A stretch of DNA of 48,641 nt, taken from Candidatus Brocadia sp. WS118. GTDB lineage: Bacteria; Planctomycetota; Brocadiia; Brocadiales; Brocadiaceae. Each line of letters opens with the position of its first letter. The stretch's first letter is position 1. Positions 2,064-45,596 of the stretch are shown here, piece by piece. Position numbers and translations under genes: made by a program. Where the stretch lies: NCBI GenBank assembly GCA_007618135.1, contig PHFX01000158.1:1-48641 (forward strand), in the 5' to 3' direction. The notes below the pieces were generated by a model. The model did no database searches and was not told the origin of the DNA. It was given only the letters and a program-made list of their open reading frames with translations.

Positions 2064-2085
2064 CTGTATCCTCCTTTTTTAACAG

Positions 2086-4540: not shown

Positions 4541-4600
4541 CGATGGTCCTCCTTTGAATTTGGGTAAATTGAATGGTTCAAATTCTCCTCTTTATATTAT

Positions 4601-4626
4601 AGAGAGAAACCCCTTGGATTCTCTCT
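4601..4626. promoter_or_regulatory. Inverted repeat in the leader of the helical-CHAT pair
   Basis: AGAGAGAA (4601-4608) and TTCTCTCT (4619-4626) are perfect complements with a 10-base spacer, 61 bases upstream of the minus-strand ATG at 4540. On the minus strand a TATAAT hexamer (plus 4596-4601) abuts it, but no convincing -35 box was seen. It may be an operator or a leader hairpin. The rest of the 277 bp gap (4541-4817) shows nothing I can name. Confidence 0.35.
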
Positions 4627-4817
4627 GGTGTTTTACAAAAAGACGTGCGTTAGCAAATGAGATTATAATAAGCTATTCTTTTATTGTTAATAAGCCGAAT
4701 ATTTTTTCAAACCCTCAAATTGATTTTAATGTTCCATCAGCACTTGTCTTTCCTCAAAAAAGTGAACACCAACTTAAGTTGTATTAATTGGATTTAGTTT
4801 TCCAAATTAAACCGGTG

Positions 4818-6335: not shown

Positions 6336-6441
6336 TTTGTTCCCCTCTTTCATTTAAAATTTCTGTTATTTTTGGCTAACTTTGATGCTCTTGAATTTTG
6401 AACCCTTTTATAAACAATAGGGTTTGAATCGTTAAAAAATT

Positions 6442-9400: not shown

Positions 9401-9843
9401 AATTCCTTCAGCAACAGCAGTGAAGGTGGACCGGTTTTCAAAGCCTGAACATAAGCCTTGAATGCAGATGAAGAATCGCCTTTCAGTTGATATGCTTTTG
9501 CGATCATCCAAAAAGCATGTTGCCGATATTCCGGTTCAGCACTCAATTGCTGAAAATAGCCCTGCGCTTTATCGATTTGTCCATTATAGACATACCAATC
9601 CAATAGCGTCAAGTACACTTCCTCAAAGCTCGGATGGTTAAGTAAAAATCGCTGTAGTGTGTCAAATCGCTGATCTAAAGAAACCGCTTGCAGAGAGTCC
9701 AGAAGCGCATAATAAGATCGATATATTCTTTCTTCACCTGCAGACGATGCCTGAATTGTGCAGAAAAGAAGAAGATCGAATAGTAATGTTAAGGCACGAG
9801 TTGTAAATACGTTTTTTACTGTAAAATTTTTACCATTCTCCAT
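6442..9843 (-). CDS. Exported, membrane-anchored TPR-CHAT protease
   Basis: A 1133-residue protein. A basic N-terminus and hydrophobic core (about 16-35, ending near ASSA-GEE) form a probable signal peptide. Residues about 40-600 are TPR-type helical repeats (for example KYFEEAINICSKLQNY, AISAYRQAVKIIEDTRSELN). The CHAT domain covers about 720-1085, with His941 in IIHFATHG and Cys988 in VTLSACETG, followed by IMTLWKVDD and FYWAPFILYGDPG. A transmembrane helix at about 1097-1118 is followed by RKRAK, so the protease faces outside the cytoplasmic membrane and a short tail faces in. It starts 20 bp after a tiny membrane protein gene, downstream of a sigma/anti-sigma set. The obvious inference is an envelope-sensing caspase-like protease. 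The substrate is unknown. Confidence 0.92.
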   Translation of the reverse strand: MENGKNFTVKNVFTTRALTLLFDLLLFCTIQASSAGEERIYRSYYALLDSLQAVSLDQRFDTLQRFLLNHPSFEEVYLTLLDWYVYNGQIDKAQGYFQQLSAEPEYRQHAFWMIAKAYQLKGDSSSAFKAYVQALKTGPPSLLLLKEFINLDNDQVGKFNGEAIIQKLSLAQEIREIASAFYYYFRQKDEKAIEIFSKSPDKITHHPVVLDIWGYCYFYSSRPIKADSIWRLGYRIASQQGNLRAKTRFLSNLGLLAKQVAKDYHLALAYYDSAYVIAARINDYYRLQILSGYRGFLYRDQGNYQEAVKYFEEAINICSKLQNYRFLWDWYRGYAMTLYYLGRYTSALATIDSSEALARRSKNTELLVRTLLDKAELYITLKQLLLAKATLKEVLNITVINKLRNHQESARAKLGQVLMLEGNYVEARELFEEYIDILSKNPAYRKDVYLWIGRVANIYLVEKKYEQARVEFQKAFKAAQEAEATAFEGWYLLHIGDAELHLGNIDTAFTKYEAALKIASEEGITEMLWEIYEGYGNAYKKAGKLEAAISAYRQAVKIIEDTRSELNVDQLRIGYFVDGYAVYESLVYCYLQRYWKQDNPSDLDSVFYYHEMGRSRALQDLLSNRGVTHYTHEYLQARNRLRLLQRSIRLKLDQFRPAREIESLKNELELVRLSMLAQQLNSLPDKHSPEITKPPAFSNLSTILKNLEKSHLGLLLYHISEEVSFVLAAAENKVEIVQLNLNPDSLESAIESLMKPFHNAEAGLIQKIPFKAETAFRLYQALIKPVEERFHLPRQLFVVPDLSLTNLPFEMLLTSKPDSAEYTPGDLPTYADWFLLHRYTFTYSPSTSLLLAKEASPVTDNPNVMVVANPFYYKAEDLVLNQTRAQQRYSWRFTPLFFAEWEAEQIKRVHANTDIRKRDQATKSALIKEIPRHQIIHFATHGFVDSTFDSFSGLALALGPDSTDDGLFMGYEILDLPFNCDLVTLSACETGRGKFVVGEGVLALPRLFIGAGAKSVIMTLWKVDDKFASELMPNFYDYLLNQKLTKAEALARAKRNLIGKRNTEGASIYYQHPFYWAPFILYGDPGGSFNSIHNSTLYIILFIIIIIPGSILLFFLIRKRAKTRTVNETERIK

Positions 9844-12818: not shown

Positions 12819-15086
12819 ATGGCGATTCATCGCTCCGGAAGTATCATCAACAACCGCTACGAAGTAGTGCAAGGCCCCCATGAGAAACCCAGCCTGGCCG
12901 GCGGCATGGGGCTGGTTTACCTCTGTGTGGATCACGGAAAAGACGGCCGCCCGGTGGCTTTGAAGACCTTCCGCCCGGAGTATCTCCCCAACCGGGAGGC
13001 CCGCGACCGCTTCCTGCGGGAAGGCACTACCTGGGTGCAGTTGGGCAGACATCCCCACATTGTCAGATGTCATGAAGTCATCAAAGGCGCGGTCGGGTCA
13101 GAAGTCTTCTTTGTGCTGGATCTGGTTGCGCCGGCCGAAGGCAAGCGCGACGCCTCATTACGCTCCTGGTTGATCTCCGGCAAACCGCTGCCGGTTGAAC
13201 AAGCCCTGCTCTTTGCCCTGCACCTCGCCCGGGGCATGAAACACGCAACGGAGAAGCTCCCCGGCCTGGTTCACCGCGATCTGAAGCCGGAGAACGTGTT
13301 GGTGGGGCGGGATGGATTGGCGCGGATTACCGATTTCGGCTTGGCGAGCGCGATTCAGGAAACAGGCGACCAACTGCCAGTGGCAGACGCTAAAGAAAGC
13401 GAGGAGAGCGGGTTGGGAAGAACGCAGTTGACCCAGGGTGTGGTGGGCACCCCGCTCTACATGGCCCCGGAACAATGGACCGGCGGAGAGTTGGATGCTC
13501 GTAGCGATATCTACGCTTACGGGTGTATTCTATTTGAAATGCTGGCCGGGAAGCGGGTAGTGAGCGGTAACACTATTGCTGAGATAGAAAAAGCCCATCG
13601 GGAAGGCCGGGTGGCGGAAATATCTTTCAGGTTACTCGATCATCTTGGCCAACTCCTGCAAGGTTGTGTCAAGGTGAACCGGGAAGAACGGTATAGCAAC
13701 TGGTTGGAACTGGAATCCGAAGTTGCCGAGGCCTGGAAAGTCGTTATGGGTAAAGAAGCACCGGCTGCCCCGGATAGTTCGCCAGACCTGCCTGCCCGAC
13801 CAGGTCGTTCAGGTGGGCCTGCCGAGCGGGTGGCTGCCGGGGGGTCTTACAATGCCATGGGAGCATCGTACTTTGACATTGGCAAGTTTTCCGTGGCACG
13901 GGACTATTTTGAGAAGGCGCTGGCGATCGGGCGGCAAGAAGGAGAGCGCTCTTTGCAAGCTGTTGCATTGGGCAACCTGGGCAATGCTTATTGGGGGTTG
14001 GGCGATACGCATAGCGCGATTGGGTATCATGAGCAGTCATTGGCCATTGCCCGGGAAATCGGAGACCGCCAGGGCGAAGGTCATTCATTGGGCAATTTGG
14101 GTAATGCTTATTTCCTATCGGGCGATGTACAGAGCGCGATTGGATATTTTGAGCAGTGTTTGGCCATTACCCGCCATATAGACGACCACCAAGGTGAAGG
14201 TGTAGTGTTGGGCAATTTGGGCAATGCTTATCGTCGGTTGGGCGATGCACGTAGGGCGGTTGGGTATTATGAGCAGCGTTTAGCCATTTCACGGGAAATT
14301 GGTGACCGGCACGGTGAAGGTCAGGCGTTGGGCGACCTGGGCAATGCTTATTCGCAGTTGGGCGATGCGCGTAGGGCGATTGTGTATCATAAGCAGTCAT
14401 TGGCCATTGCCCGGGAAATCGGTGACCGTCGGGGCGAAGGTGCGACGTTGGGCAACTTGGGTACTACTTATAATCAGTTGGGCGATGTGCGAGGCGCAAT
14501 TGGTTATATTGAGCAGTCATTAGCCATTGACCGCGAAATCGGTGACCGCCATGGCGAAGGTAATACGTTGGGTAACCTGGGCGGTGCTTATTGTCAGTTA
14601 GGCGATGCGCGGGGAGCGATTGATTATTTTGAGCAGTCATTGGCCATTGCCCGGGAAATCGGCGACCGCCATGGCGAAGGTGTGGCATTGGGTAACCTAG
14701 GCAGTGCTTATTTGCAGTTAGACGATGCTCGCGGTGCGATTGGTTATTTTGAGCAGTCTTTGGCTATCGCCCGCGAAACCGGCGCCCGTCAGAGTGAAGG
14801 TCAGACGTTGTGCAACCTGGGTGTTGCTTATCGTCGGTTGGGCTATACACAGCGAGCCATTGAATCCTATGAACGATCTTTGGCAATCCTGCGGGAGATT
14901 GGCGATGTTATGAGTGATGCATCAATCAGTCTCAACCTCGCCTATCTGTATTCCGAACAAGGCAGCTTCTGGGAAGCCCGGCCGCACGCCCAATATGCCC
15001 AACAAGTGTTTAGCCAGGCAGGGCATGCTAAATATGCCGCAAGAGCCCGGCAATTGCTACAGGAGATCGAGCAGCAAATGAAATGA
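12819..15086 (+). CDS. Ser/Thr protein kinase with TPR array, K1
   Basis: A 755-residue cytoplasmic protein with no membrane helix. The kinase domain spans about 13-310. Visible motifs are the Gly loop LAGGMGLVY (first Gly replaced by Leu), Lys49 in VALK, HRDLKPEN (Asp154, Asn159), DFG (172-174), MAPEQW, and Asp230 in RSDIYAYGC, so it should be active. An Ala/Pro-rich linker (310-345) leads to ten 40-residue TPR units. Eight are crisp (LGNLGNAYxxLGDxxxAIxYxEQxLAIAREIGDRxGEG) and the first and last are degenerate. Such arrays bind partner proteins. First gene of a nine-gene array; K2 follows by 37 bp. With K3 and K9 it shares the VQET...LPV activation segment and the KVNREERYSNW ending of the kinase. 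Confidence 0.95.
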   Translation: MAIHRSGSIINNRYEVVQGPHEKPSLAGGMGLVYLCVDHGKDGRPVALKTFRPEYLPNREARDRFLREGTTWVQLGRHPHIVRCHEVIKGAVGSEVFFVLDLVAPAEGKRDASLRSWLISGKPLPVEQALLFALHLARGMKHATEKLPGLVHRDLKPENVLVGRDGLARITDFGLASAIQETGDQLPVADAKESEESGLGRTQLTQGVVGTPLYMAPEQWTGGELDARSDIYAYGCILFEMLAGKRVVSGNTIAEIEKAHREGRVAEISFRLLDHLGQLLQGCVKVNREERYSNWLELESEVAEAWKVVMGKEAPAAPDSSPDLPARPGRSGGPAERVAAGGSYNAMGASYFDIGKFSVARDYFEKALAIGRQEGERSLQAVALGNLGNAYWGLGDTHSAIGYHEQSLAIAREIGDRQGEGHSLGNLGNAYFLSGDVQSAIGYFEQCLAITRHIDDHQGEGVVLGNLGNAYRRLGDARRAVGYYEQRLAISREIGDRHGEGQALGDLGNAYSQLGDARRAIVYHKQSLAIAREIGDRRGEGATLGNLGTTYNQLGDVRGAIGYIEQSLAIDREIGDRHGEGNTLGNLGGAYCQLGDARGAIDYFEQSLAIAREIGDRHGEGVALGNLGSAYLQLDDARGAIGYFEQSLAIARETGARQSEGQTLCNLGVAYRRLGYTQRAIESYERSLAILREIGDVMSDASISLNLAYLYSEQGSFWEARPHAQYAQQVFSQAGHAKYAARARQLLQEIEQQMK

Positions 15087-15123
15087 GCTTAAACCGCCAC
15101 TTTCAAGAAAAGGAGTATCGGCA
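15087..15123 (+). repeat. 37 bp conserved intergenic leader, copy 1 (K1-K2)
   Basis: Reads (G/A)(C/T)TT(A/G)AACCGCCAC then TTCAAGAAAAGGAG and 9 bases to the next ATG. AAGGAG is the ribosome binding site of K2. Copies of identical length lie at 17392-17428 and 25907-25943. Confidence 0.85.
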
Positions 15124-17391
15124 ATGACGATCTACCCATCCGGCAGTATGATCAACAACCGCTATGAAGTGGTGCAAGGCCCCCATGAAAAGCCCAGTTT
15201 AGCCGGGGGCATGGGGTTGGTCTACCTCTGTGTGGATCACGGGGAAAACGGCCGCCCGGTGGCTTTGAAGACCTTCCGACCGGAGTATCTCCCCAACCGG
15301 GAGGCCCGGGACCGTTTCCTGCGCGAGGGCAGCACCTGGATGGAGTTGGGCTACCATCCGCACATTGTCAGGTGTCATCAAGTATTCAAGGTTGATGTTG
15401 GCTCAGAGGTCTTTTTCGTTCTGGATCTGGTTGCTGCTGCCGAAGACAAACACGACGCCTCCTTAAGGGCCTGGCTTACTCCCGGCAGACCCTTGCCAGT
15501 GGAGCAGGCATTGCTATTTGCCCTGCACATTGCCCGGGGTATGAAACACGCCACTGGGAAGATCCCTGGCCTGGTTCATCGCGATCTGAAACCGGAAAAT
15601 GTATTGGTGGGGCGGGATGGTTTTGCCCGAGTAACCGACTTTGGATTGGCTGGCATCCTGAGCAATCTGTCCGAAGCTATTCCAGAGCAAGTGCAAGCTG
15701 ACCCATCGTTAGCCCAGCGTAGATTGCTGACCTTCACAAAAGGTTTTGTGGGCACACCTGAATATGCTTCACCAGAACAGTTTGATGGCAAAGAATTGGA
15801 TGAGCGTAGCGACATCTATGCCTTTGGCTGTATTCTCTTTGAGATGCTAACCGGGCAGCCACCTTTTATACAAAAATACAAGACACCAGAAGAACGATTG
15901 TTGAAATACCAGCAATGCCATAAGAGCGAAGAGCCAAAACCGCCGAGTTCCATTATTCCGACGTTGACAGGCAAATTAGAGACAATTGTGACTCGATGTT
16001 TACGAAAAAGACCGGATGAGCGGTATACAAGTTGGGGGGAAGTAGAAACAGTGCTGGCGAGTGCGTATCGAGTGGTGGCCGGGAAAGAGGCGTTGAGCGA
16101 AATAACGACCGAGGGCGAAACACGTGCCGAGCTTGTGACCCTGGGATGGTCTTACAATGCTATGGGAGGATCGTACTCAGACATTGGCAAGTTTTCGGTG
16201 GCGCGGGAGTATTTTGCGAAGGTACTGGCGATCGGGCGGCAGGAAGGAGAGCGTTCTTTGCAGGCTGCGGGGTTAGGCAACCTTGGCTATGTTTATCGCC
16301 AGTTGGGCGATGTGCGCAGCGCGATTGGGTATTTTGAACAGCATTTGGCCATTGCCCGAGAAACTGGCGACCGTCAGAGCGAAGGTGTGGCGCTGGGTAA
16401 CCTGGGCAATGCTTATCGCCAGTTGGGCGATGCGCATAGGGCGATTGGGTATTTTGAACAACATTTGATCATCGTCCGCGAAATCGGCGATAGGCAGGGC
16501 GAAGGCCAGGCGTTGGGCAACCTTGGCATTGCCTACCGTCAGTTGGGCGATATACATAGGGCAATTAAGTATTGTGAACAGGATTTGGCCATTGCTCGCG
16601 AAATTGGTGACCGGCAGGGCGAAGGCCAGGCGATGGACAATCTGGGTATTGCCTATCGTCAATTGGGCGATGCGCAAGGCGCAATTGGGTATCATGAGCA
16701 GCATTTGGCCATTGCTCGCGAAATCGGTGACCGGCAGGGCGAGAGTTTGGCATTGGGCGGTTTAGGTAGTGCTTATTTTCAATTGGGTGATGCGCAGGGC
16801 GCAATTGGATATCATGAGCAGCATTTGGCCATTGCTCGCGAAATCGACGATAGGCAGGGTGAGGGCAAAGCGTTGGGCAATTTGGGCAATGCTTATTTGC
16901 AGTTGGGTGATGTGCATGACGCGATTGGGTATTATGAGCAGTGTTTAGCCATTTCCCGCGAAATCGGAGACCGCCAGGGCGAAGGCCAAGCGATGGGCAG
17001 TCTAGGCATTGCTTATCGTCAGTTGAACGATGTGCGTAGGGCGATTGAGTATTATAAAAAGTATTTAGCCATTTCCCGCGAAATCGGCGACCGTCAGAGC
17101 GAAGGTACGGTGTTGGGCAATTTGGGCAATGTCTTCGCTCAGTTAGGCGATGTGCATGAGGCCATTAACCATTATAAGCGATCTTTGACGATCCTTCGGG
17201 AAATTGGCGATGTCATAAATGAGGCATCATTCAGTTTAAACCTTGCAATCCTGTATTCCCAACAAGGCAGCTTCCGGGAAGCCCGGCCGTATGCTCAATA
17301 TGCCCTGGAAGTGTTTACCAATGCGGGATATCCTCAGTATGCCGCAAAAGCCCGGTATTTCTTACAGCAGATCGAGCAGCAAATGAAATGA
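15124..17391 (+). CDS. Ser/Thr protein kinase with TPR array, K2
   Basis: 755 residues. Head block as in K1 (Lys49, HRDLKPEN, DFG all intact). The second half of the kinase differs clearly from its neighbours: the activation segment is EYASPEQFDGKELDERSD, followed by a TGQPPF loop and a C-lobe (LETIVTRCLRKRPDERY) closer to ordinary bacterial Ser/Thr kinases. A common head is therefore joined to a different C-lobe. Ten TPR units follow, 40 residues each, several with MDNLG or MGSLG in place of LGNLG. AAGGAG at good spacing supports the ATG. The gene ends IEQQMK like K1 and is followed by the same 37 bp leader. Presumed active; targets unknown. Confidence 0.94.
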   Translation: MTIYPSGSMINNRYEVVQGPHEKPSLAGGMGLVYLCVDHGENGRPVALKTFRPEYLPNREARDRFLREGSTWMELGYHPHIVRCHQVFKVDVGSEVFFVLDLVAAAEDKHDASLRAWLTPGRPLPVEQALLFALHIARGMKHATGKIPGLVHRDLKPENVLVGRDGFARVTDFGLAGILSNLSEAIPEQVQADPSLAQRRLLTFTKGFVGTPEYASPEQFDGKELDERSDIYAFGCILFEMLTGQPPFIQKYKTPEERLLKYQQCHKSEEPKPPSSIIPTLTGKLETIVTRCLRKRPDERYTSWGEVETVLASAYRVVAGKEALSEITTEGETRAELVTLGWSYNAMGGSYSDIGKFSVAREYFAKVLAIGRQEGERSLQAAGLGNLGYVYRQLGDVRSAIGYFEQHLAIARETGDRQSEGVALGNLGNAYRQLGDAHRAIGYFEQHLIIVREIGDRQGEGQALGNLGIAYRQLGDIHRAIKYCEQDLAIAREIGDRQGEGQAMDNLGIAYRQLGDAQGAIGYHEQHLAIAREIGDRQGESLALGGLGSAYFQLGDAQGAIGYHEQHLAIAREIDDRQGEGKALGNLGNAYLQLGDVHDAIGYYEQCLAISREIGDRQGEGQAMGSLGIAYRQLNDVRRAIEYYKKYLAISREIGDRQSEGTVLGNLGNVFAQLGDVHEAINHYKRSLTILREIGDVINEASFSLNLAILYSQQGSFREARPYAQYALEVFTNAGYPQYAAKARYFLQQIEQQMK

Positions 17392-17428
17392 ATTTGAACC
17401 GCCACTTTTAAGAAAAGGAGCATTGGCA
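17392..17428 (+). repeat. 37 bp conserved intergenic leader, copy 2 (K2-K3)
   Basis: Same length and almost the same sequence as the K1-K2 gap, including AACCGCCAC and AAGAAAAGGAG, which places the ribosome binding site 8 bases before ATG 17429. Confidence 0.85.
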
Positions 17429-19306
17429 ATGGCAATTTACCCTTCCGGCAGCATTATCAACAACCGCTACGAAGTGGTGCAAGGTCCCAACGAGAAACCC
17501 AGCCTGGCCGGGGGCATGGGGCTGGTGTATCTCTGCGTGGATCACAAGGAAAACGGCCGCCCGGTGGCCCTGAAGACCTTCCGCCCGGAGTATCTGCCCA
17601 ACCGGGAAGCTCGCGACCGCTTCCTGCGTGAAGGCACTACCTGGGTGGAGTTGGGCAATCATCCACATATCGTCAGATGCCATCAAGTCATCAAAGGTGC
17701 GGTCGGCTCAGAAGTCTTTTTCGTTTTGGAACTCGTTGCTGCGGCGGAAGGTAAACGCGATGCCTCGTTAAGGGCCTGGCTTACTCCCGGCAAACCCCTG
17801 CCGGTGGAGCAGGCATTGCTATTTGCCCTGCACCTCGCCCGGGGTATGAATCACGCCACCGAGAAGATTCCCGGCCTGGTACACCGGGATTTGAAGCCAG
17901 AGAACGTGCTGGTGGGGCGGGATGGGGTGGCGCGGATTACCGACTTCGGCTTGGCAACCGCGGTGCAGGAAACAGTCAACCTGCTACCAGTGGCTGGCGC
18001 TAAAGAAAACAAGGAGAGCGGGTTGAGAAGAACCCGGTTGACCCGGGGTATAGCAGGCACCCCGCTCTACATGGCCCCGGAACAATGGGCCGGCGCAGAG
18101 CTGGATGCACGCAGCGATATCTATGCTTATGGGTGTATTCTTTATGAAATGTTTATCGGGAAGTTCGCTGTGGCCGGTAACACCCTTAAAGAGATAGAAA
18201 AAGCCCATCGGAAAGGTCTGCTTGCTGAAATATCTTCCACTTTACCCGGCCCTCTGATTCAACTGCTTCAACGATGTGTAAAGGTGAACCGGGAAGAACG
18301 CTATAGCAATTGGTTGGAATTGGAATCCGAAGTTGTCAGTGTTTACAAAACCGTTATGGATAAAGAGACACCAGCCAACGCGGGTAGCTCGCCAGACCAG
18401 GCTGGCGAGTCGGCGGTGGGTTGGTCATATAATGTTATAGGGTTATCTTATCATGATATTGGCAAGTTTGCAGTAGCGCAGTCTTATTTTGAGAAAGTAC
18501 TGGCTATTTCTCGCTCCAAGCAGGATCGTTCTATGGAAGCTGCAGCTCTGGGCAATCTGGGTAATGCCTATTATCAGTTAGGTGAGGTGCGGAAGGCGAT
18601 TGTTTTCTTTGAACAAGATCTGAAGATTGTTCGGGAGATCGGCAACCTCTACGGGGAAGAAACAGCTCTGAGCGGTTTGGGCAATGCCTATGCAAATTTA
18701 AACGAGATTTCAAAAGCGATTACTTTTTTTGAACAACATTTGGCCATTACTCGACGTATCGGCGACCGCCACGGGGAAGGCGGGGTTCTGGGTAATCTGG
18801 GCAGCCTCTATTATCAGGAGGGTGAAATGAGGAAAGCAATGGACTTCTACCAGCATGCTCTGATCATTGCCCGCGAAATCAGGGATCGTCATGGAGAAGG
18901 TCTCGCACTGGGTGGTTTGGGCAATGTTCACCTTCAGTCTGGTCAAGTTCTTCAGGCGATTAGATATTTTAAGCAACATGTGGCTATCGCCGAAGAGATC
19001 GGCGACCGCCATGGGGAAGGTCAGGCTCTGGGCAATTTAGGAAATGCTTATATTCAACTGGGAGAGATTCCGCAGGCGATTGATTTTTATGAGCGTGATC
19101 TGGTGGTTGCCCGGGAAGTCGGTGACAGACGCGGGGAAGGTGCAGCTCTTGGGGGTTTAGGTATCGCTCATGCTATGTTGGGCGATTTACGCAGAGCGCT
19201 TATGTATGCGGAAAATGCTTTTCAGGTATTCACCCAGATTGGGCATGTTCAAGATGCTGCCCAGGCGAAGGAATTGATCAATCGTATAAAAAAGCGATTG
19301 CCGTAA
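17429..19306 (+). CDS. Ser/Thr protein kinase with TPR array, K3 (shortest)
   Basis: I chose ATG 17429 (625 residues), aligned with the MAIYPSG start of its paralogues and with AAGGAG at 8 bases. A TTG two codons earlier is ignored. All catalytic motifs are intact (VALK, HRDLKPEN, DFGLA, MAPEQW). The C-lobe, linker (ANAGSSPDQAGES) and first TPR are nearly identical to K9: 13 mismatches over 275 bases (18281-18555 against 31229-31503). After that point the TPR arrays are unrelated in detail and in number, seven units here and thirteen in K9. The tail ends INRIKKRLP instead of IEQQMK. Presumed active cytoplasmic kinase with a short docking array. Confidence 0.94.
   Translation: MAIYPSGSIINNRYEVVQGPNEKPSLAGGMGLVYLCVDHKENGRPVALKTFRPEYLPNREARDRFLREGTTWVELGNHPHIVRCHQVIKGAVGSEVFFVLELVAAAEGKRDASLRAWLTPGKPLPVEQALLFALHLARGMNHATEKIPGLVHRDLKPENVLVGRDGVARITDFGLATAVQETVNLLPVAGAKENKESGLRRTRLTRGIAGTPLYMAPEQWAGAELDARSDIYAYGCILYEMFIGKFAVAGNTLKEIEKAHRKGLLAEISSTLPGPLIQLLQRCVKVNREERYSNWLELESEVVSVYKTVMDKETPANAGSSPDQAGESAVGWSYNVIGLSYHDIGKFAVAQSYFEKVLAISRSKQDRSMEAAALGNLGNAYYQLGEVRKAIVFFEQDLKIVREIGNLYGEETALSGLGNAYANLNEISKAITFFEQHLAITRRIGDRHGEGGVLGNLGSLYYQEGEMRKAMDFYQHALIIAREIRDRHGEGLALGGLGNVHLQSGQVLQAIRYFKQHVAIAEEIGDRHGEGQALGNLGNAYIQLGEIPQAIDFYERDLVVAREVGDRRGEGAALGGLGIAHAMLGDLRRALMYAENAFQVFTQIGHVQDAAQAKELINRIKKRLP
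18388..18409. repeat. Inverted repeat in the kinase-TPR linker of K3
   Basis: CTCGCCAG (18388-18395) and CTGGCGAG (18402-18409) are perfect complements with a 6-base loop. They code for part of SSPDQAGES between kinase and TPR array. The same hairpin is at 31336-31357 in K9. Confidence 0.7.
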
Positions 19307-19338: not shown

Positions 19339-21336
19339 ATGTTTATCTATCCATCGGAAAGTATGATCGCGGGCCGCTATGAAGTCGTGCAAGGTCCGCT
19401 CGAGAAACCCAGTCTGGCCGGGGGCATGGGGCTGGTTTATCTCTGTGTGGATCATAGGGAAAACGAACGCCCGGTGGCCTTGAAAACCTTCCGCCCGGAG
19501 CTGCTTTCTAACCGGACGGCCCGGGATCGCTTCTTACGGGAAGGCACCACCTGGATGCAATTAGGGAAATATCCTCATATTGTTCAGTGCCACAATGTAA
19601 TCAAGTTTGAATTTGGCTCTGAGGTCTTTTTTGTTCTGGAACTTGTAAACAAAGCAGATGATAGAAATAACGCTTCACTGCGTTCATGGTTAATTGCAGG
19701 AAAGCCTTTATCTATAGATCAATCCTTAATCTTTGCATTGCATATCGCCCGTGGAATGAAACATGCAGTCAGCAAGATAACAGGGATAGTTCACCGAGAC
19801 TTGAAACCAGAGAATATATTGGTGGGCCAGGATGGTTTAGCTAAAGTAACTGATTTTGGTTTAGCAACTGCTTTAGGGGTAGAGAATAATCAGTGGAATC
19901 TTTCTAATTTCTATACGAATGACGAAATAAGCCTGGAAAGAACGCAGTTAACCCACGGTATTGTTGGCACACCGCTTTATATGGCGCCGGAACAATGGGA
20001 AGGCGCAGAACTTGATGAGCGGACGGATATATATGCTTTCGGTTGTATACTTAATGAAATGCTCACCGGCAATTTTGCCTTTTTCGAGAAAAATTTAAAA
20101 AATTTAGAGAAAGCCCATAGAACTGGACGGTTTCGCAAATTACCTTTAGGACTTCACACCGATATTGTCCAGCTTCGGAATTCCTGTATAGCAAAAAATC
20201 GAGAAGAAAGATATCCTAGTTGGAAAGAATTGGAAGTGGAATTAACCAATTTATATAAAAAGATTATTGGTAAAGATGCCCCCCAAACACCAGATTCTCT
20301 TGTTGAGACTCGCGCTGAACGAGTGGCTTTGGGATGGTCTTATAATAGTATGGGATTATCTTATAGGGATATTGGAAAATTCGAGGTGGCAAGAGAATAT
20401 TTTAACCGGGCGACAAAGATAAGTAGAACAGAGAAAGAACTTAGAATGGAAATAATGGCATTGTCTAATCTTGGAAATGTTTATTTACATATAGGAGATA
20501 CCGATCAAGCAATCAAAATTCACGAACAGAGTTTGGTACTTGCACGTGAAATCGGGGAGCGCGTCGCAGAAGGGATGGCTCTTAATAACTTAGGTAATGC
20601 TTATAACAAATTGGGTAGAACAAATAAAGCAATTGAGTGTTATGAAATGCGTATTCAAATTGCCCGTGAGGTTGGGGATCGACATGGAGAAGGAAATGCA
20701 TTAGGCAATTTAGGAAACGTTTACTTCCAGTCAGACAATTTTCGCTATGCGATAGATTATCATGAAAAACGATTAGCAATTATGCGTGAAATTGATGATT
20801 TAAGTGGTGAAGGAGAATCTCTTGGAAACTTGGGGGCTGTTTACGGACAATTACACGATATGCAACGTTCGATTCGTTACTACGAACGATGTCTTATCAT
20901 TATGAGAAAGCTTGGTAACCCTCACGGCCAGCTAACCGCTCTTGCAGGGATCAGTGCTGCATACTCCGAGTTGGGTGACTATTGGCAAGCAATAAATTAT
21001 TTGGAGCAGCGTCTAAATGTCGCCCGAGAGATTCATGATCAACGGGGAGAGTGGAGTGCTATTCGTGACATGGGGTATGCCTACCTTAAGCAAGGAAACT
21101 ACAATTTAGCGATTGACTTCTATGAACAGGCTATAGATTTAGCGCATGGAATTGGCGACACAGTCGGGGCAGCAAGAGACAGTTTCACCTTGTCGATATT
21201 ACTGTCTCATACGGGTCGTACTACAGACGCCTTATCCAAAGCTGAATATGCACTGGAAATTTTTGAGAAATTCGGACACGAAGAATACGCTGCAAATGCA
21301 AGAAAACTGATACATGATTTTCGAGAAAAATTATAA
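19339..21336 (+). CDS. Ser/Thr protein kinase with TPR array, K4
   Basis: 665 residues starting MFIYPSESMIAGRYEVV, with AAAGGA before the ATG. The head block is GC-rich and like its siblings. From about 19590 the gene becomes clearly more AT-rich and diverged in sequence, a visible composition break inside the kinase domain. Catalytic motifs are intact: VALK, HRDLKPEN, DFGLA, MAPEQW. The C-lobe has its own features (SCIAKNREERYPSW). Eight TPR units follow, the middle ones irregular (LAGISAAYSELGDYWQAINY, IRDMGYAYLKQGNYNLAIDF). Last residues are LIHDFREKL. This copy looks older or differently derived outside the head block. Presumed active; partner unknown. Confidence 0.94.
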   Translation: MFIYPSESMIAGRYEVVQGPLEKPSLAGGMGLVYLCVDHRENERPVALKTFRPELLSNRTARDRFLREGTTWMQLGKYPHIVQCHNVIKFEFGSEVFFVLELVNKADDRNNASLRSWLIAGKPLSIDQSLIFALHIARGMKHAVSKITGIVHRDLKPENILVGQDGLAKVTDFGLATALGVENNQWNLSNFYTNDEISLERTQLTHGIVGTPLYMAPEQWEGAELDERTDIYAFGCILNEMLTGNFAFFEKNLKNLEKAHRTGRFRKLPLGLHTDIVQLRNSCIAKNREERYPSWKELEVELTNLYKKIIGKDAPQTPDSLVETRAERVALGWSYNSMGLSYRDIGKFEVAREYFNRATKISRTEKELRMEIMALSNLGNVYLHIGDTDQAIKIHEQSLVLAREIGERVAEGMALNNLGNAYNKLGRTNKAIECYEMRIQIAREVGDRHGEGNALGNLGNVYFQSDNFRYAIDYHEKRLAIMREIDDLSGEGESLGNLGAVYGQLHDMQRSIRYYERCLIIMRKLGNPHGQLTALAGISAAYSELGDYWQAINYLEQRLNVAREIHDQRGEWSAIRDMGYAYLKQGNYNLAIDFYEQAIDLAHGIGDTVGAARDSFTLSILLSHTGRTTDALSKAEYALEIFEKFGHEEYAANARKLIHDFREKL

Positions 21337-21410
21337 GGGGTTGGTTTCCTTTTGCTGCCTATTTGAATAAGATATTACGTTCATTTTGGATATCAGATGA
21401 GAGCTTAGCC

Positions 21411-23525
21411 ATGAATATTTACCCTTCAGGAACCATCATCGCCAACCGCTACGAAGTGGTGCAAGGCCCCCATGAGAAACCCAGCCTGGCTGGAGGCATG
21501 GGGCTGGTTTACCTCTGCGTAGATCACTCAGAAGACGGCCACCCGGTTGCCTTGAAGACCTTCCGCCCGGAATATCTCCCCAACCGGGAGGCCCGCGACC
21601 GTTTCCTGCGGGAAGGCAGCACCTGGATTCAGTTGGGCAAACATCCGCATATTGTCCGCTGTCATCGAGTCTTCAGATCCGAAGTTGGCGCAGAAGTCTT
21701 TTTCGTTCTTGAGCTCATTGCCGCCTTTGAAGATAAACGGGATGCTTCTTTGCGTTGCTGGCTTACACCAGGCAAACCACTACCTATTGCGCAAGCTTTA
21801 CTATTTGCACTGCATATTGCGCGCGGTATGCAGCAAGTCACAACGGAAATTCTCGGTTTGGTGCATCGCGACCTGAAACCGGAAAATGTGCTCATTGGTC
21901 AAGATGGCCTGGCGCGCATTACTGACTTCGGGCTGGTACAGGTCATTGAGGAAATCAATAAAACTTTCATAGCGGGTTCACCAGTCGAAATTGAGATGTC
22001 GGTTTTACAAAGAACACAAAAAATGCACGGCATCGTGGGCACACCACGTTACATGGCACCAGAACAATGGAAAAGTGAAGCACTGGATGCACGCACCGAT
22101 ATCTATGCTTTCGGTTGCATACTCTTTGAAATGACTACCGGTAAGTTCGCAATTTCCGGTAACAATCTTGCCGAAATTAAAGCCGCTCAAATGGCCGGTA
22201 AGAATTGTGAAATACCGATTGATTTGCCGGAAAACCTCCGAAAGCTATTGTCTCAATGTTTGCGTGTGGATCGGAACGATCGGTTTCGAGAATGGAACGA
22301 AGTGGTCACCAATATGGCCGAGGTGTATGCAAGGATTACCGGTAAAACGCCTCCGGAATCGATAGATTTTGCTACCGATGCTTATGCGGAGCAGTTGGCG
22401 GCTGGACTGTCATATTATGCGATTGGTATTTCCTACACAGATATTGGCAAGTTTCCAGTAGCTCGTGCTTATTTTGAAAAGGTCTTGAGTGTCGCTCATG
22501 CAGCAAAAGAGCGCCGTTTAGAAAGTGCAGCACTGGGCGGACTTGGCAATGTTGCCACACAACTCGGCGACGCCCACCGTGCTATTGAATTCTATGAGCA
22601 ATACCTGGCAATTGCGCGGGAGATTGACGACCGCCATGGTGAAGGAGTGGCTCTGGGTAATTTAGGCAATGTCTATCGTCGACTCGGTGATGCGCGCCGT
22701 GCTATTGCATTCTATGAACAGCATTTGTCGATTGTTCGAGAGCTTGGCGACCATTATGGCGAAGGTGCCGCCCTCGGTAATCTCGGCACAGTTTACGAAT
22801 TGCTCGGCGATACGCACCGTGCTATTGCATTCTATAAACAACGTTTGGCGATTGCGCGTGTGCTTGGCGACCGTTATGCCGAAGGCCGGACCCTCGGCAA
22901 TCTCGGTAATGCTTACTTTCAACTCGGCGATGCCCGCCAGTCCATTCAATTCCATCAGCAAGACTTGGCGATTGCACGTGAACTTGGCGATCGCTATGGT
23001 GAAGGTGTCGCCCTTGGTAATCTGGGTAACGCTTATGCGCTGTTGGAGGATTGGCGTAAGGCCAGTGAATGCTTTGCGCAATATTTGGTCATTGCGCGTG
23101 AGCTTGACGACCGCCGGGGTGAAGGTATTGTGCTCGGGAATCTCGGTAGTGTCTACGCCAATCTTGGTGATGCGCAGCAGGCCATAGTATGCTATCAACA
23201 GCAGTTGACGATTGCGCGCGAGCTGGGTGATCGGCGTAGCGAAGGCGGAGCACTCGGCAATCTGGGCAGTACCTATGCTGATCTCAAGGAGGTGGAAAAG
23301 GCAATTGAATACAGCGAGCAAAGTTTGGCCATAGCACACGATCTCGAAGATGTTGTCGGCGCTGCAATGACAAGTTTTAATTTAGCGATTCTTCTGCTAC
23401 AGAAAGGCCAATTGAATAAAGCGAAAGATTATGCTGAATACGCTGTGCAGGCTTTCACGCAGATTGGGCACAGCCAATATGCCGCACAGGCACAGCAAAT
23501 ACTTGATCGCATTCAGGCACAATAA
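21411..23525 (+). CDS. Ser/Thr protein kinase with TPR array, K5
   Basis: I chose ATG 21411 (704 residues, MNIYPSGTIIANRYEVV) by alignment with its paralogues. A longer frame from TTG 21363 would add 16 residues with no homology to them. GAGAG lies about 9 bases upstream. The catalytic motifs are intact (VALK, HRDLKPEN, DFGLV, MAPEQW). The activation segment contains EIEMSVLQRTQKMHG. Nine TPR units follow, with AREL(G/D)DR(Y/R)GEG as the usual helix-B ending in place of AREIGDR. The gap from K4 is the longest in the array (74 bp) and lacks the 37 bp leader, so a secondary promoter could sit there. Presumed active kinase. Confidence 0.93.
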   Translation: MNIYPSGTIIANRYEVVQGPHEKPSLAGGMGLVYLCVDHSEDGHPVALKTFRPEYLPNREARDRFLREGSTWIQLGKHPHIVRCHRVFRSEVGAEVFFVLELIAAFEDKRDASLRCWLTPGKPLPIAQALLFALHIARGMQQVTTEILGLVHRDLKPENVLIGQDGLARITDFGLVQVIEEINKTFIAGSPVEIEMSVLQRTQKMHGIVGTPRYMAPEQWKSEALDARTDIYAFGCILFEMTTGKFAISGNNLAEIKAAQMAGKNCEIPIDLPENLRKLLSQCLRVDRNDRFREWNEVVTNMAEVYARITGKTPPESIDFATDAYAEQLAAGLSYYAIGISYTDIGKFPVARAYFEKVLSVAHAAKERRLESAALGGLGNVATQLGDAHRAIEFYEQYLAIAREIDDRHGEGVALGNLGNVYRRLGDARRAIAFYEQHLSIVRELGDHYGEGAALGNLGTVYELLGDTHRAIAFYKQRLAIARVLGDRYAEGRTLGNLGNAYFQLGDARQSIQFHQQDLAIARELGDRYGEGVALGNLGNAYALLEDWRKASECFAQYLVIARELDDRRGEGIVLGNLGSVYANLGDAQQAIVCYQQQLTIARELGDRRSEGGALGNLGSTYADLKEVEKAIEYSEQSLAIAHDLEDVVGAAMTSFNLAILLLQKGQLNKAKDYAEYAVQAFTQIGHSQYAAQAQQILDRIQAQ

Positions 23526-23569
23526 AGGTGAAGTTTTAGAACTCTTGGAATCATAATTTGGTGAATAAA

Positions 23570-25906
23570 ATGCCTATTTATCCTTCTGGAACCCTCATCG
23601 CTAACCGCTACGAAGTAGTACAAGGTCCCCATGAGAAATCTACCCTGGCCGGGGGCATGGGGCTGGTCTATCTCTGCGTGGATCACGCAGATGACGGGCG
23701 CCCGGTAGCCCTGAAGACCTTCCACCCGGAGTATCTACCCAACCGGGAAACCCGCGACCGTTTCCTGCGGGAAGGTACTACCTGGGTGGAGTTAGGCTAC
23801 CATCCTCACATTGTTCGCTGTTACCGGGTTGATAAAGTAGCTATCGGCTTAGAAATCTTCCTGGTGTTGCAACTGATTGTCGCGGACGAGGGAAAGCGTG
23901 ACGCTTCACTACGTTCCTGGCTCATCCCTGGCAAATCACTTCCGGTCGAGCAAGCCCTGCTATTTGCCCTGCACATTGCCCGGGGTATGAAACACGCCAC
24001 TGAGAAGATCCCCGGCCTGGTTCATCGCGACCTGAAGCCCGAGAACGTGCTTGTCGGTCGAGATGGGTTGGCGCGGATTACCGATTTTGGGCTCGCAAAA
24101 GCAATAGACAGTTATGAAGGTATCTGTAGCAATTTCAATTCGATGAAAAGCGACGGTTTGGGGCGGCAGCGTACCCTGTTAACGCAAGGGATTGCCGGCA
24201 CCCCACGCTATATGTCTCCGGAGCAGTGGGCTGGCGAGACATTAGATACCCGCAGCGATATCTATGCCTTTGGCTGCATCCTTTATGAGATGCTCAAGGG
24301 CGAGTTTGTCATCTCCGGCAAGGGACCCGAAGCGGTTCCTGAGGAGCAATTAAAAGATCTGCCCGGTAGTGTGGAAGAACTGTTGGCTGGTTGTTTAAAC
24401 TTTAAGCGAGAGGAGCGTTTTGCCGGTTGGGCTGCTGTGGAGATTCGATTAGGGGAGGTCTATATGAAATTGACCGGTGAGACTACATCGGCAGCGTTGG
24501 AGAGCGAAGACGGTGAAGAAGGAGAGGCAGTAGCGGTGGGTTGGTCGTATATTGCTCTAGGTCTATCTTACCTGGATATCGGCAAATTTTCTGTGGCGCG
24601 GGATTATTTTGTGAATGTATTGGAAATTGCCCGGGACCAGTGGGATCGTTCTTTGGAAGCCGCCGCCCTGGCCAATCTGGGCATTGCTTATCGTCAGTTA
24701 GGCGATACGCGACGGGCCATTGAGTTCTTTGAACAGGATCTGGCAATTGCCCAGGAGACAGGAAACAGACGCAGCGAAGGGCGTGCTTTGACCAACCTGG
24801 GCACCGCATATTCAGATTTAGGCGATGCACGGCAGGCCATTCAATTCTATAAGCACCATCTAGCGATAACCCAGGAGACTGGCGACCGGCACGGTGAAGG
24901 CATGGCTATAGGAGGGTTGGGTTCTGTCTATCTTCAGTTAGGTGAAGTGCGACGGGCTTTTGAATTCTTTGAACATCATTTGGCTATAATGAAGGAAACT
25001 GGTGACCCGCACGATGAATGTATTGCTCTGGGTAATTTGGGTATTGCCTATTTACATTTGGGTGAAGCACGGCGGGCCATTGAATTGTTTGAGCATTATC
25101 TATCTATAATGAGGAATACTGGCGACCGGCATGGGGAAGGTATGGCCTTGGGCAGCATGGGTAATGCCTATTTTCAGCTAGGTGAAGTTTGGAAAGCGAT
25201 CGAATTTTATCAGCAGCATCTGGCGATTACTCAGGAGACTGGTGATCTCCTTGGTGAGAGTAAAGCACTGGGCAGCCTAGGCAATGCCTATCGTCAATTA
25301 GGCGATTCGCAGGGGGCGATTGAGTTCCTTGAACAATGTCTGTCTATTACCCGTCAAACCGGTGATCGGCAGGATGAAGGCACCACCCTCGGTAACCTGG
25401 GTAATGCCTATTTTCACTTAGGCGAAACACGACAGGCCATAAAATTCTATCAGCAGCAACTGGCGATTACCCGGGAGACCGGCGACCAGCATGGTGAAAG
25501 CATTGCACTAGGCAACCTGGGCAATGCATATTTATATTTAGGTGATACACGACAAGCCATTGAATCTTTTGAACAAGTTCTCACTATGATGAGGAAGACC
25601 GGCAACCGCTACGGTGAAGGCGCCACCCTGGGCAACCTGGGCAATGCCTATGCAGACTTAGGGGATACGAAACAGGCAATTGAGTATTATGAACAATGCT
25701 TGGCGATCAAAGAGGAGATTGGTGATGTCATGAATAAGGCAGGTTTTAGCCTCAATCTTGCAAACCTGTATGCCAAACAAGGCAGATTCCAAGAAGCCCG
25801 GTCACACGCTCAATATGCCCTGCAAGTATTTAGTCAGGTGAGGCATGATCAATATAAGGCGGATGCCCAGAATCTTCTGGATGCAATCGAGGGTCAGATA
25901 AAATGA
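23570..25906 (+). CDS. Ser/Thr protein kinase with TPR array, K6
   Basis: I chose ATG 23570 (778 residues, MPIYPSGTLIANRYEVV) over TTG 23558 because it aligns with the family start. The ribosome binding site is weak (GGTG). Kinase motifs are intact: VALK, HRDLKPEN, DFGLA, MSPEQW. The activation segment SMKSDGLGRQRTLLTQGIAG is shared with K8, and in shorter form with K7, so K6, K7 and K8 form a subgroup of neighbours. Eleven TPR units follow; helix B often reads QETGDRHGEG. The C-terminus (LDAIEGQIK) and the 37 bp gap to K7 match the K1-K2 and K2-K3 junctions. Presumed active cytoplasmic kinase. Confidence 0.94.
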   Translation: MPIYPSGTLIANRYEVVQGPHEKSTLAGGMGLVYLCVDHADDGRPVALKTFHPEYLPNRETRDRFLREGTTWVELGYHPHIVRCYRVDKVAIGLEIFLVLQLIVADEGKRDASLRSWLIPGKSLPVEQALLFALHIARGMKHATEKIPGLVHRDLKPENVLVGRDGLARITDFGLAKAIDSYEGICSNFNSMKSDGLGRQRTLLTQGIAGTPRYMSPEQWAGETLDTRSDIYAFGCILYEMLKGEFVISGKGPEAVPEEQLKDLPGSVEELLAGCLNFKREERFAGWAAVEIRLGEVYMKLTGETTSAALESEDGEEGEAVAVGWSYIALGLSYLDIGKFSVARDYFVNVLEIARDQWDRSLEAAALANLGIAYRQLGDTRRAIEFFEQDLAIAQETGNRRSEGRALTNLGTAYSDLGDARQAIQFYKHHLAITQETGDRHGEGMAIGGLGSVYLQLGEVRRAFEFFEHHLAIMKETGDPHDECIALGNLGIAYLHLGEARRAIELFEHYLSIMRNTGDRHGEGMALGSMGNAYFQLGEVWKAIEFYQQHLAITQETGDLLGESKALGSLGNAYRQLGDSQGAIEFLEQCLSITRQTGDRQDEGTTLGNLGNAYFHLGETRQAIKFYQQQLAITRETGDQHGESIALGNLGNAYLYLGDTRQAIESFEQVLTMMRKTGNRYGEGATLGNLGNAYADLGDTKQAIEYYEQCLAIKEEIGDVMNKAGFSLNLANLYAKQGRFQEARSHAQYALQVFSQVRHDQYKADAQNLLDAIEGQIK

Positions 25907-25943
25907 GTTTGAACCGCCACATTTAAGAAAAGGAGCATTCACA
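25907..25943 (+). repeat. 37 bp conserved intergenic leader, copy 3 (K6-K7)
   Basis: Same length as the K1-K2 and K2-K3 gaps, with AACCGCCAC, AAGAAAAGGAG and the next ATG at the same offsets. Its presence far from the first two copies shows that stop-to-start junctions were copied together with the genes. Confidence 0.85.
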
Positions 25944-28067
25944 ATGGCAATTTACCCTTCCGGCAGTATCATCAACAACCGCTACGAAGTGGTGCAAGGC
26001 CCCCATGAGAAACCCAGTTTGGCAGGAGGTATGGGACTGGTCTATCTCTGCGTTGATCGCAGTCAGGGAGGTCTTCCGGTTGCTTTAAAAACCTTCCGCC
26101 CGGAGTATCTCCCCAACCGGGAGGCCCGCGACCGCTTCCTACGCGAAGGCAGCACCTGGGTGGAGTTGGGCTACCATCCTCACATCGTGCGCTGTTACGG
26201 GGTGGTAAAAGCCGTGGTTGGCCCAGAAGTATTCCTGGTACTACAACTAGTAACCGCAGCAGAGGGCAAACATGACGCCTCTTTAAGAGCCTGGCTCACC
26301 CCCGGCAAACCTCTGCTTCCAGAACAGGCGCTCCTGTTTGCCCTGCATATAACCCGAGGGATGCGATGGGTGACGGAAAAGGTGCCCGGTCTGGTGCACC
26401 GCGACCTGAAGCCGGAGAATGTGCTGGTGGGCCGGGATGGCCTGGCACGGATCACCGATTTTGGGTTAGTGCAAGTTCTGACGGGTGAAGACAGTATCAT
26501 TAGTAAATTTGATATAGGGGATGACAGTGGAGAAAGTCGGCAGCGCACTCAATTGACGCAAGGTATTGCCGGTACCCCGTGCTACATGTCTCCCGAGCAA
26601 GGGGCAGGCGAGACCTTAGATGTTTGCAGCGATATTTATGCGTTCGGTTGCATCCTCTACGAGATGCTCACGGGGGAGTTTGCCGTCGTAGGAAAGAATA
26701 TTGAGGAGTTTCTGCAAGCCCATCGGGAAGGACGATTGAGAGCGATACCTACCCAGTTGCCCGTGGATACCCGCCAACTGTTAGAGAGGTGTTTGGCCCG
26801 ACAGCCGGAGGATCGCTATAGAAGTTGGGAAGGGGTAGAGAATGCGCTGGTACAAGTTTATCACTCACTGAGCGGCAGCGTTCCGCAACAAATAACCGAC
26901 CGGGATCAGGACGCGAACCGGGTGGAACGGTTAGCGCTGGGCTGGTCTTATAATACCATAGGCGTGTCTTATTATGATATCGGAAAGTTTGGGATTGCGA
27001 AAGGGCATTTTGAAAAGGCATCGGCCATTGCCCAGGAGATAGGCGACCGGTACGGAGAAGGATCAGCCCTGGGCAACCTCGGCAATACTTATCTTGAGTT
27101 GGGGGATGTTCGCCGGGCGATTGATTTTTTTGAACAAAATCTGGCGATTACCAAGGAGATCGGCGACCACCACGGGGAAGGAACGGTTTTGGGTAATCTG
27201 GGCAATGCCTATCTTCAATTGGGAGATGCCCGGCGGGCGATTGGGTTTTATGAACAGGACCTGGCGATTGCCAGGGAGATCGGCGACCGTCAAGGGGAAG
27301 GTAGATCCGTGGGCAATTTAGGCAATGCCTATTTTCGATTGGGAGATGCTCAGCGGGCAATTGATTTTTTTGAACAGCGACTGGATATTGCCAGGGAGAT
27401 TGGCGACCGCCATGGAGAAGGCCAAGCGTTGGGGAACTTGGGCATTGTCTATGAGCAGTGGGGAGATGCCCGGCAGGCGATTGGATTTTATGAACAACAC
27501 CTAACCATCGTTCGGGAGATGGGTGATCGCCAGGGGGAAGCCGCCGGCCTGGGCAACTTGGGTGTTGCCTATCGTTTGTTGGGGGATGCTCACCGGGCGC
27601 TCGGTTTTTTTGAACAGTCTCTGGTGATCGCCCAAGAGATTGGTGATCGCGGTAGAGAGGGAGTAGCCCTGGGCAACTTAGGCAATGCCTATTTTCAGTT
27701 GGGGGATGTTCAGCGGGCAATTGGCTTTTATGAACAACACCTGACAATTGCCAAAGAGATCGGAGATCGTTATGGAGAAAGCCAGGCCCTGGGGAATCTG
27801 GGCAATGCCCATTTTCAATTGGGCCATATCCAGCGGGCGATTGGATTTTACGAACAGCGTCTGGCAATTGCCTACGATATTGGCGATGTGATGGGAGCGG
27901 CGAAGACCAATCTCAATCTGGCGCGGTTGCTTTTAGACCATGCCCGCCCTATAGAAGCCCTCCCCCATGCCCAATCCGCTGGGCAGACGTTCGAGAAGGC
28001 CGGGCACATTCAGTATGCTGTCAAAGCGCAGGAGTTAATTGAGCAGATCAAAACTTATATGGGGTAA
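25944..28067 (+). CDS. Ser/Thr protein kinase with TPR array, K7
   Basis: 707 residues starting MAIYPSGSIINNRYEVV after AAGGAG. The catalytic set is present (VALK, HRDLKPEN, DFGLV). The segment after the activation loop differs from siblings: YMSPEQGAGETLDVCSDIYAFGC has Gly for the usual Trp after PEQ, and Cys for the Arg before SDIYA. Neither is a catalytic residue, but both sit in the APE-alpha F region that supports the activation segment. Nine TPR units follow. The first is more regular than in other copies, and most end EIGDRxGEG. Grouped with K6 and K8 by its QRTQLTQGIAGTP segment. Probably active. Confidence 0.93.
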   Translation: MAIYPSGSIINNRYEVVQGPHEKPSLAGGMGLVYLCVDRSQGGLPVALKTFRPEYLPNREARDRFLREGSTWVELGYHPHIVRCYGVVKAVVGPEVFLVLQLVTAAEGKHDASLRAWLTPGKPLLPEQALLFALHITRGMRWVTEKVPGLVHRDLKPENVLVGRDGLARITDFGLVQVLTGEDSIISKFDIGDDSGESRQRTQLTQGIAGTPCYMSPEQGAGETLDVCSDIYAFGCILYEMLTGEFAVVGKNIEEFLQAHREGRLRAIPTQLPVDTRQLLERCLARQPEDRYRSWEGVENALVQVYHSLSGSVPQQITDRDQDANRVERLALGWSYNTIGVSYYDIGKFGIAKGHFEKASAIAQEIGDRYGEGSALGNLGNTYLELGDVRRAIDFFEQNLAITKEIGDHHGEGTVLGNLGNAYLQLGDARRAIGFYEQDLAIAREIGDRQGEGRSVGNLGNAYFRLGDAQRAIDFFEQRLDIAREIGDRHGEGQALGNLGIVYEQWGDARQAIGFYEQHLTIVREMGDRQGEAAGLGNLGVAYRLLGDAHRALGFFEQSLVIAQEIGDRGREGVALGNLGNAYFQLGDVQRAIGFYEQHLTIAKEIGDRYGESQALGNLGNAHFQLGHIQRAIGFYEQRLAIAYDIGDVMGAAKTNLNLARLLLDHARPIEALPHAQSAGQTFEKAGHIQYAVKAQELIEQIKTYMG

Positions 28068-28101
28068 GCATTTTCATCTATACCACAAAGGAGCACTCAC
28101 C

Positions 28102-33003: not shown

Positions 33004-33080
33004 ATGAACATCTGATCTTTCAGGTATTGCAACCAATTGCTGCATCCTAAGGCAAGCGTTATACTTCCTTACGAGTCTGT
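33004..33080 (+). pseudogene. Relic of a tenth kinase gene
   Basis: GAGAGGTG is followed by ATG AAC ATC T at 33004, which resembles a kinase-gene start (compare MNIY of K5), but a TGA follows at 33013. From 33015 to 33080 the DNA aligns without gaps to K6 at 23855-23920, 44 of 66 positions by hand count. Read in the kinase frame it gives IFQVLQPIAAS, a stop, then GKRYTSL, against IFLVLQLIVADEGKRDASL in K6. So the start of a kinase gene seems fused by deletion to its hinge region, then cut off. It lies between K9 and the radical SAM gene. Confidence 0.7.
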
Positions 33081-33111
33081 CGTGCCACTTGAAAAAATTG
33101 GAGAGTTAATT

Positions 33112-33753: not shown

Positions 33754-33782
33754 ATTCAAACCTTGCTAATTGGGGGTACACC

Positions 33783-35201: not shown

Positions 35202-35213
35202 GAAAGCCAGTAT

Positions 35214-38180: not shown

Positions 38181-38216
38181 GAAGAAATTTATTAGCAAAG
38201 GTATGGAAAAAGCGCT

Positions 38217-43351: not shown

Positions 43352-43355
43352 GAAA

Positions 43356-44489: not shown

Positions 44490-44539
44490 CTTCTATCTGG
44501 TTATTGAATAGATGCAATTAAAAGAGAAAGTTTTGGAAT

Positions 44540-45550: not shown

Positions 45551-45596
45551 TTCAGACTACTAATATGAACAGATGTAATTTGAGGAGAGGTAAAAT

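Follow-up and report, generated by a model that had tools for sequence, protein, structure and literature searches.

A chimeric Ser/Thr kinase of Candidatus Brocadia sp. WS118 and an NB-ARC protein carry a colinear TPR array

How two kinases of one tandem family come to share a nearly identical segment while carrying different TPR arrays is the question raised by a stretch of 48,641 nucleotides from Candidatus Brocadia sp. WS118, which is analysed here as a whole and called the window. The window contains nine head-to-tail Ser/Thr kinase-TPR genes, K1-K9, at 12819-32974 on the + strand, with gaps of 32-74 nt. Kinase motifs are present in all nine genes, with DLG in K8, and their VAIK lysine, HRD aspartate and DFG aspartate mark the products as bacterial Hanks-type Ser/Thr kinases. 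K3 (17429-19306, + strand) encodes a protein of 625 aa with intact VALK, HRDLKPEN, TDFG and APEQ motifs (Pfam Pkinase, PF00069, 5e-36; TPR_12 9e-57). K9 (30377-32974, + strand) encodes a protein of 865 aa in which VALK, HRDLKPEN and TDFG are intact and APE reads ASE (Pkinase 7e-36, TPR_12 4e-96). The TPR units are 40 residues (120 nt) each, and unit parsing gives seven units for K3 and thirteen for K9 when the C-terminal cap unit is counted. These numbers, and the five kinase-TPR paralogues K4-K8 (19339-30336, + strand) that separate K3 and K9, agree with what a sequence-only reading of the window had reported.

The segments 18281-18555 of K3 and 31229-31503 of K9 align in register and differ at 12 of the 275 positions. 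The sequence-only reading had counted 13 differences; the near-identity that it described stands, and the count does not. When the genome is searched at the DNA level with the K3 segment, K9 is the top match (96%, E 3e-125) and the runner-up, on contig C284, reaches 74%, so that the similarity is not due to chance. At the 3' boundary, a two-rate change-point places the drop in identity from 0.958 to 0.618 after position 18556 (interval 18552-18561; logL gain 50), at the ALGNLG motif that opens TPR unit 2. Identity indeed collapses once the second TPR starts, as had been noted, but the breakpoint is not at the kinase-TPR junction, where it had been placed: it maps one TPR unit farther inside the array, and unit 1 (18425-18544 in K3 and 31373-31492 in K9, both + strand; 92% identical by unit parsing and the unit matrix) travels with the kinase. 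Position 18281 corresponds to residue 285 of K3, and the Pfam Pkinase match spans residues 28-293 in both K3 and K9. The segment consists of the last residues of the kinase, the linker and TPR unit 1, and ends four codons into unit 2. The earlier description of one kinase cassette holds for a shared 3' part of the kinase, but not for a whole kinase within 18281-18555. GC3 drops at the kinase-TPR border from 62 to 44 in K3 and from 57.5 to 44.6 in K9, and is higher in the kinase half than in the TPR half in all nine genes.

Past unit 1, the arrays are of different flavour, as had been stated. No K3-K9 unit pair exceeds 70% identity in the unit matrix, synonymous sites between K3 and K9 units have reached saturation (mean pS 0.73), and the order of the units shows no colinearity (p 0.97). 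Gradual decay with a one-to-one alignment of units, which the sequence-only reading had named as the contrary pattern, is not seen. Units 2-7 and the C-terminal tail of K3 (18545-19303, + strand) have no close copy in the genome, in which longer matches to the K3 array are at 64-70% and only short ones (less than about 100 nt) reach 78%. The internal units are on average 61.5% identical at the nucleotide level in K3 and 61.6% in K9, with mean pS values within the array of 0.65 and 0.74 respectively. The internal units are therefore old, which means that the arrays were not built up in situ once the kinase ends had separated.

The kinase domain upstream of the segment does not have a uniform age. 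K3 and K9 are mutually closest at residues 81-180 (89% nucleotide identity) and 181-284 (88%). The N-lobe is alike across nearly all paralogues, and in it K3 and K9 are not the closest pair, with 83% identity as compared to 87% for K3-K1 and for K3-X1, X1 being a kinase of the same family on contig C284; this lower identity is suggestive only, because the AU test does not reject a K3/K9 grouping in the N-lobe (p 0.24). Along the K3/K9 pair, dS drops from 0.78 in the N-lobe to 0.40 at residues 81-180, 0.22 at residues 181-280 and 0.06 at 18272-18430, and is 0.25 in unit 1. The tract 18272-18430 (+ strand; 31220-31378 in K9, in register because the K3/K9 alignment is gap-free) covers the kinase tail, the linker and the first codons of unit 1, and is probably a product of gene conversion. 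Its identity is 98.1%, as compared to 87.1% just upstream, with a change-point after 18271, and it includes an exact repeat of 96 bp (18272-18367). When polymorphic columns are permuted against the other paralogues in a GENECONV-like manner, none of 10,000 permutations reaches the K3=K9 tract 18272-18427 (p about 1e-4). From these steps in dS along the kinase, the shared kinase/unit-1 segment is the older part (dS about 0.2-0.4), and a conversion tract of much younger age is nested in it. The 96% figure is raised by the young tract and gives no date for the difference between the arrays. Of the fairly recent array swap that had been proposed, the part that holds is one kinase 3' part on two unrelated arrays; a single recent cassette does not fit dS values that range from 0.06 to 0.78.

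The sequence-only reading had suggested asking whether the K9 array has a closer match elsewhere, and such a match is found in the same genome. TPR units 4-13 of K9, including the cap (31733-32955, + strand), are colinear with positions 2860-4082 (- strand) of contig C240, within a gene for an NB-ARC protein, at 88.96% identity over 1223 bp. The diagonal of the unit matrix is at 79-95% for units 4-13, whereas off-diagonal values are mostly 50-72%. The 5' border of the match lies at 31735-31757 by change-point analysis; the ungapped 3' border lies at about 32919, at a 3-nt indel, and the gapped match runs to 32955, just short of the stop codon. The gene on C240 (L130:2841-6110) encodes a protein of 1089 aa with, over L130:2844-6110, NB-ARC (PF00931, 4e-10), TPR_12 and, below its cut-off, HEAT_2 matches. 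Its NB-ARC NTPase and superstructure-forming C-terminal repeats are those by which STAND proteins are defined, and the protein is one of them. The gene adjoins NACHT and NB-ARC genes, in a genome with only four NB-ARC places. An island of NB-ARC, NACHT and TPR genes (L130 200-9535) surrounds it. Between units 4-12 of K9 and those of the NB-ARC protein, dS is 0.38 and dN is 0.053 (dN/dS about 0.14). The array common to the two proteins is under purifying selection, which suggests that a binding function has been kept.

Units 2-3 of K9 (31493-31732, + strand) form a transition zone whose identity to K3, and likewise to the NB-ARC protein, is about 55-67% by the 60-nt profile and the unit matrix; neither parent matches it above about 67% in register. 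By its sequence, K9 is a three-part chimera of a K3-like front, two unassigned units and an array shared with the STAND protein; the breakpoints and the shared array are directly observed. No donor for the K9 array is found among K1-K8 or on contig C284, where matches are at 64-79%, and nothing above 54% is found in 294 genomes of the phylum. Among the loci compared, no other kinase shares an array with another protein class at 80% or more. Scans in which the kinase alignment and the K9 array were run against viral contigs confirm no viral source, and the search for array sharing inside Anaerolineae genomes yields nothing beyond the query gene and relatives of it. GC content does not tell whether K9 or the NB-ARC gene received the array.

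These results are probably best explained by TPR sensor cassettes that are exchangeable through in-frame recombination between units, together with gene conversion at the kinase ends, within a tandem kinase family. Units of equal length (120 nt) with a motif of the ALGNLGNAY type would let recombination between units of different genes preserve the frame, so that any front half could be joined to any array and arrays would be portable. In K9, the join would combine a kinase, linker and unit 1 of the K3 type, the two unassigned units, and units 4-13 common to the STAND protein. As a separate layer, gene conversion between tandem paralogues would overwrite kinase segments, with the K3/K9 tract at about 18272-18430 as the latest case. 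Unit-to-unit recombination would be the mechanism, and it is supported by breakpoints that are sharp and fall on or close to the first positions of units. The K9/NB-ARC match is not recent (dS 0.38), which blurs the exact event; later changes may also have moved the breakpoints.

Exchange in other paralogues is supported by the mixing and matching of C-lobe with unit 1 and cap among K1, K2 and X1. K1 (12819-15086, + strand) combines a kinase C-lobe of the K3/K9/X1 type with a TPR array of the K2/X1 type, according to segment matrices and the AU test: the C-lobes of K1 and X1 group with those of K3 and K9 (support 100/98), whereas unit 1 (87-88%) and the cap (74-78%) are common to K1, K2 and X1, and the AU test rejects a single clade of K1, X1, K3 and K9 when it is run on unit 1, the penultimate unit and the cap (p 8e-5). 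K2 (15124-17391, + strand) has unit 1 and cap like K1 and X1, with a divergent C-lobe and linker. The C-lobe/linker region of K2 at 15660-16120 is 43-51% identical to all paralogues, has a 6-residue insertion and is flanked by K1-like sequence; it has possibly been replaced from outside the family. K2 is not claimed as a proven recombinant, because the AU test does not reject a K1, K2, X1 clade over the C-lobe and linker (p 0.14).

Further features of the cluster are as follows. The stretches 13820-15650 and 16125-17955 form a 78% direct repeat that crosses gene borders (K1 TPR to K2 N-lobe and K2 TPR to K3 N-lobe), and duplication or conversion breakpoints therefore lie inside genes. The kinase cluster has a GC content of 50.6%, as compared to 41-43% in its flanks. 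On contig C284 (L029 2580-11340), a TIR gene is followed by three kinases of the same family, X1-X3, and then by a transposase-like gene. The end of a TPR array at 1-386 of the window is 77-89% identical to arrays on contig C34 (L030 1-7398), which carries a second tandem kinase-TPR family with shorter TPR units; the window's contig and C34 may be neighbours that are split by assembly-breaking repeats. Outside the genome, the closest relatives come from Anaerolineae and other Chloroflexi; they are likewise kinase-TPR genes, at 50-53% in the kinase part. As a control, two single-copy Anaerolineae relatives from two genomes (L034 and L035) align over the whole gene, array included, at 67-87% per window with 3 gap columns, which is the pattern left by descent without exchange.

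An account by gene conversion at the kinase end alone, under which each of the two old paralogues K3 and K9 has retained its own array and only the kinase, linker and unit 1 were copied, is given somewhat less than an even chance of being the whole story of the pair. It accounts well for the drop in similarity on both sides of the segment (dS 0.78, 0.40, 0.22, 0.06, and then saturation) and for the young tract nested in it. Similarity that fades in both directions fits this account at least as well as it fits an array swap. However, conversion alone leaves the colinear K9/NB-ARC array unexplained, for which array movement is needed. Conversion at the kinase end does not conflict with movement of arrays, and events of both kinds are likely to have taken place.

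An artefact of assembly or binning is unlikely. The assembly consists of 299 contigs with 3.4% contamination, which might have brought C240 into the bin. Close relatives of these genes are absent from the genus mates, in which no kinase exceeds about 35% identity to K3. TPR repeats do break contigs, as seen from the first 386 bp of the window, and the 96-bp exact repeat might mis-join K3 and K9 or be collapsed to one consensus. Nevertheless, the K9 array differs by 11% from the copy on C240, which excludes confusion by the assembler. On either side of the 96-bp repeat, K3 and K9 also align in register: identity per 60 nt is 77-98% upstream, and downstream it is 88-95% as far as unit 1. A mis-join at this repeat would merely swap which 5' half is paired with which array. 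By tetranucleotide profile, the C136 flanks correlate with C240 at 0.86-0.90, as other contig pairs of the bin do with each other. C136 and C240 are not surely from one organism, and if they are not, the sharing may represent horizontal transfer. Growth of the arrays in place, by unit gain, loss and fast evolution in recent duplicates, is suggested by the unit counts of 7 and 13 and by the instability of repeat arrays in fungal NLRs (PMC2873952), but has almost no probability left: new units should show about the same similarity as the kinase ends do, the best K3-K9 unit pair is at 70%, the K9 array was already formed when it came to be shared with the NB-ARC gene, and the saturated unit divergence (pS 0.73) and absent colinearity (p 0.97) rule it out.

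K9 is followed at 33037-46850 (+ strand) by genes for a radical SAM protein, a coiled-coil protein, a WD40-TIR protein, a triple AAA (CbbX-like) protein, an HSP70-like protein, a second coiled-coil protein, a Cys-rich protein and DO-GTPase2 (PF19993, 1e-8). The DO-GTPase2 gene adjoins a gene for a GAP1-N2/GAP1-M protein (46869-48641, + strand; GAP1-N2, PF20013, 1e-37; GAP1-M, 1.5e-18), which is cut by the window end. Intergenic gaps are from -1 to 74 nt across the whole co-directional run. The kinase-TPR genes, which are adjacent to the GAP1-N2 system and co-directional with it, may be a functional part of it. A GAP1-N2 protein beside a DO-GTPase marks GAP1-N2-centric conflict systems, and the run is probably one of them; no Pfam match to FNIII is found in 44540-45550 at E 0.01, and the locus continues beyond the window. 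A conflict role of the kinases is likely, because they lead into a run that matches the GAP1-N2 systems of PMC7159879, and they may feed this adjacent system. By curated model cut-off, the kinases do not qualify as the known anti-phage kinases MADS6 or PD-T4-6: the NCBIfam model MADS6 gives 90 bits, below its cut-off of 460, and PADLOC kinase matches, which have no cut-off, are confined to the kinase domain. Rfam gives no match in the window. To the left of the kinases (978-9843, - strand), a divergent block encodes CHAT-domain proteins (two clear and one below cut-off) and a calcineurin-like phosphoesterase.

Several known systems resemble this one in part. In the hnwd/NLR genes of Podospora, which have a modular architecture, shuffling and exchange of STAND sensor repeats take place inside genes as well as from gene to gene (PMC2873952, PMC4986451). 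The K9/NB-ARC array resembles them in repeat exchange between different genes, but the exchange crosses here from a kinase to an NB-ARC protein. The WD, TPR and ANK units of that family are nearly identical within a gene (about 85%) and are under positive selection, whereas K3 and K9 units are about 61% identical and purifying selection acts on the K9/NB-ARC array; concerted evolution of the hnwd type, with internal repeat identity of about 85%, is not seen in K3 (61.5%) or K9 (61.6%). In a multicellular bacterium, the sensor regions of DGR targets recombine with distinct N-terminal domains, and STAND TPR-array sensors that bind phage proteins are described in the same paper (PMC10907252); in the DGR case a retroelement hypermutates a C-type lectin that serves as the sensor, whereas the sensor here is a TPR array. 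Exchange of variable modules between parallel GAP1-N2/DO-GTPase systems is proposed in PMC7159879, and GAP1-N2, DO-GTPase2 and HSP70-like genes of the kind treated there stand immediately downstream of the kinases, within the same co-directional run. The section of that paper on a kinase theme gives it as actinobacteria-restricted (a kinase fused to a zinc ribbon or to TM helices) and has no tandem kinase-TPR arrays. PknG is a Ser/Thr kinase with a C-terminal TPR domain that is proposed to couple signal detection to phosphorylation (PMC8546545), but it is a single regulated kinase that carries additional regulatory domains, whereas nine tandem paralogues with 7-13 units are present here. By sequence, the closest natural solved arrays are of the LGN/Pins type (PDB 3sf4 and others), from eukaryotic G-protein-signaling modulator and Partner of Inscuteable proteins, with no functional link implied. 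That a Ser/Thr kinase shares a long TPR array with an NB-ARC protein, with the joints mapped, looks like a new form of such module exchange; no such case is found in the open-licence literature searched.

The K9 array recurs unit for unit on an unrelated, NLR-like NB-ARC protein, and sensor arrays therefore appear to be exchanged between different signalling machines. The TPR arrays presumably act as ligand sensors, and the K9 kinase and the STAND protein may respond to the same ligand. We tentatively suggest, as a possibility that we rate below an even chance, that one array kept by purifying selection on a Ser/Thr kinase and on an NB-ARC STAND protein gives one ligand two outputs, and that the kinase cluster is a reservoir of arrays across signalling classes. 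The finding addresses the open question of how bacterial conflict systems alter what they sense, with sequence-level evidence and mapped breakpoints for a whole TPR array joined in frame to a kinase and to an NLR-like protein. Should a common array reflect a common ligand, the two proteins could be used to test directly if recognition is set by TPR arrays alone, and the array common to the two receptors could be used as a bait for ligands.
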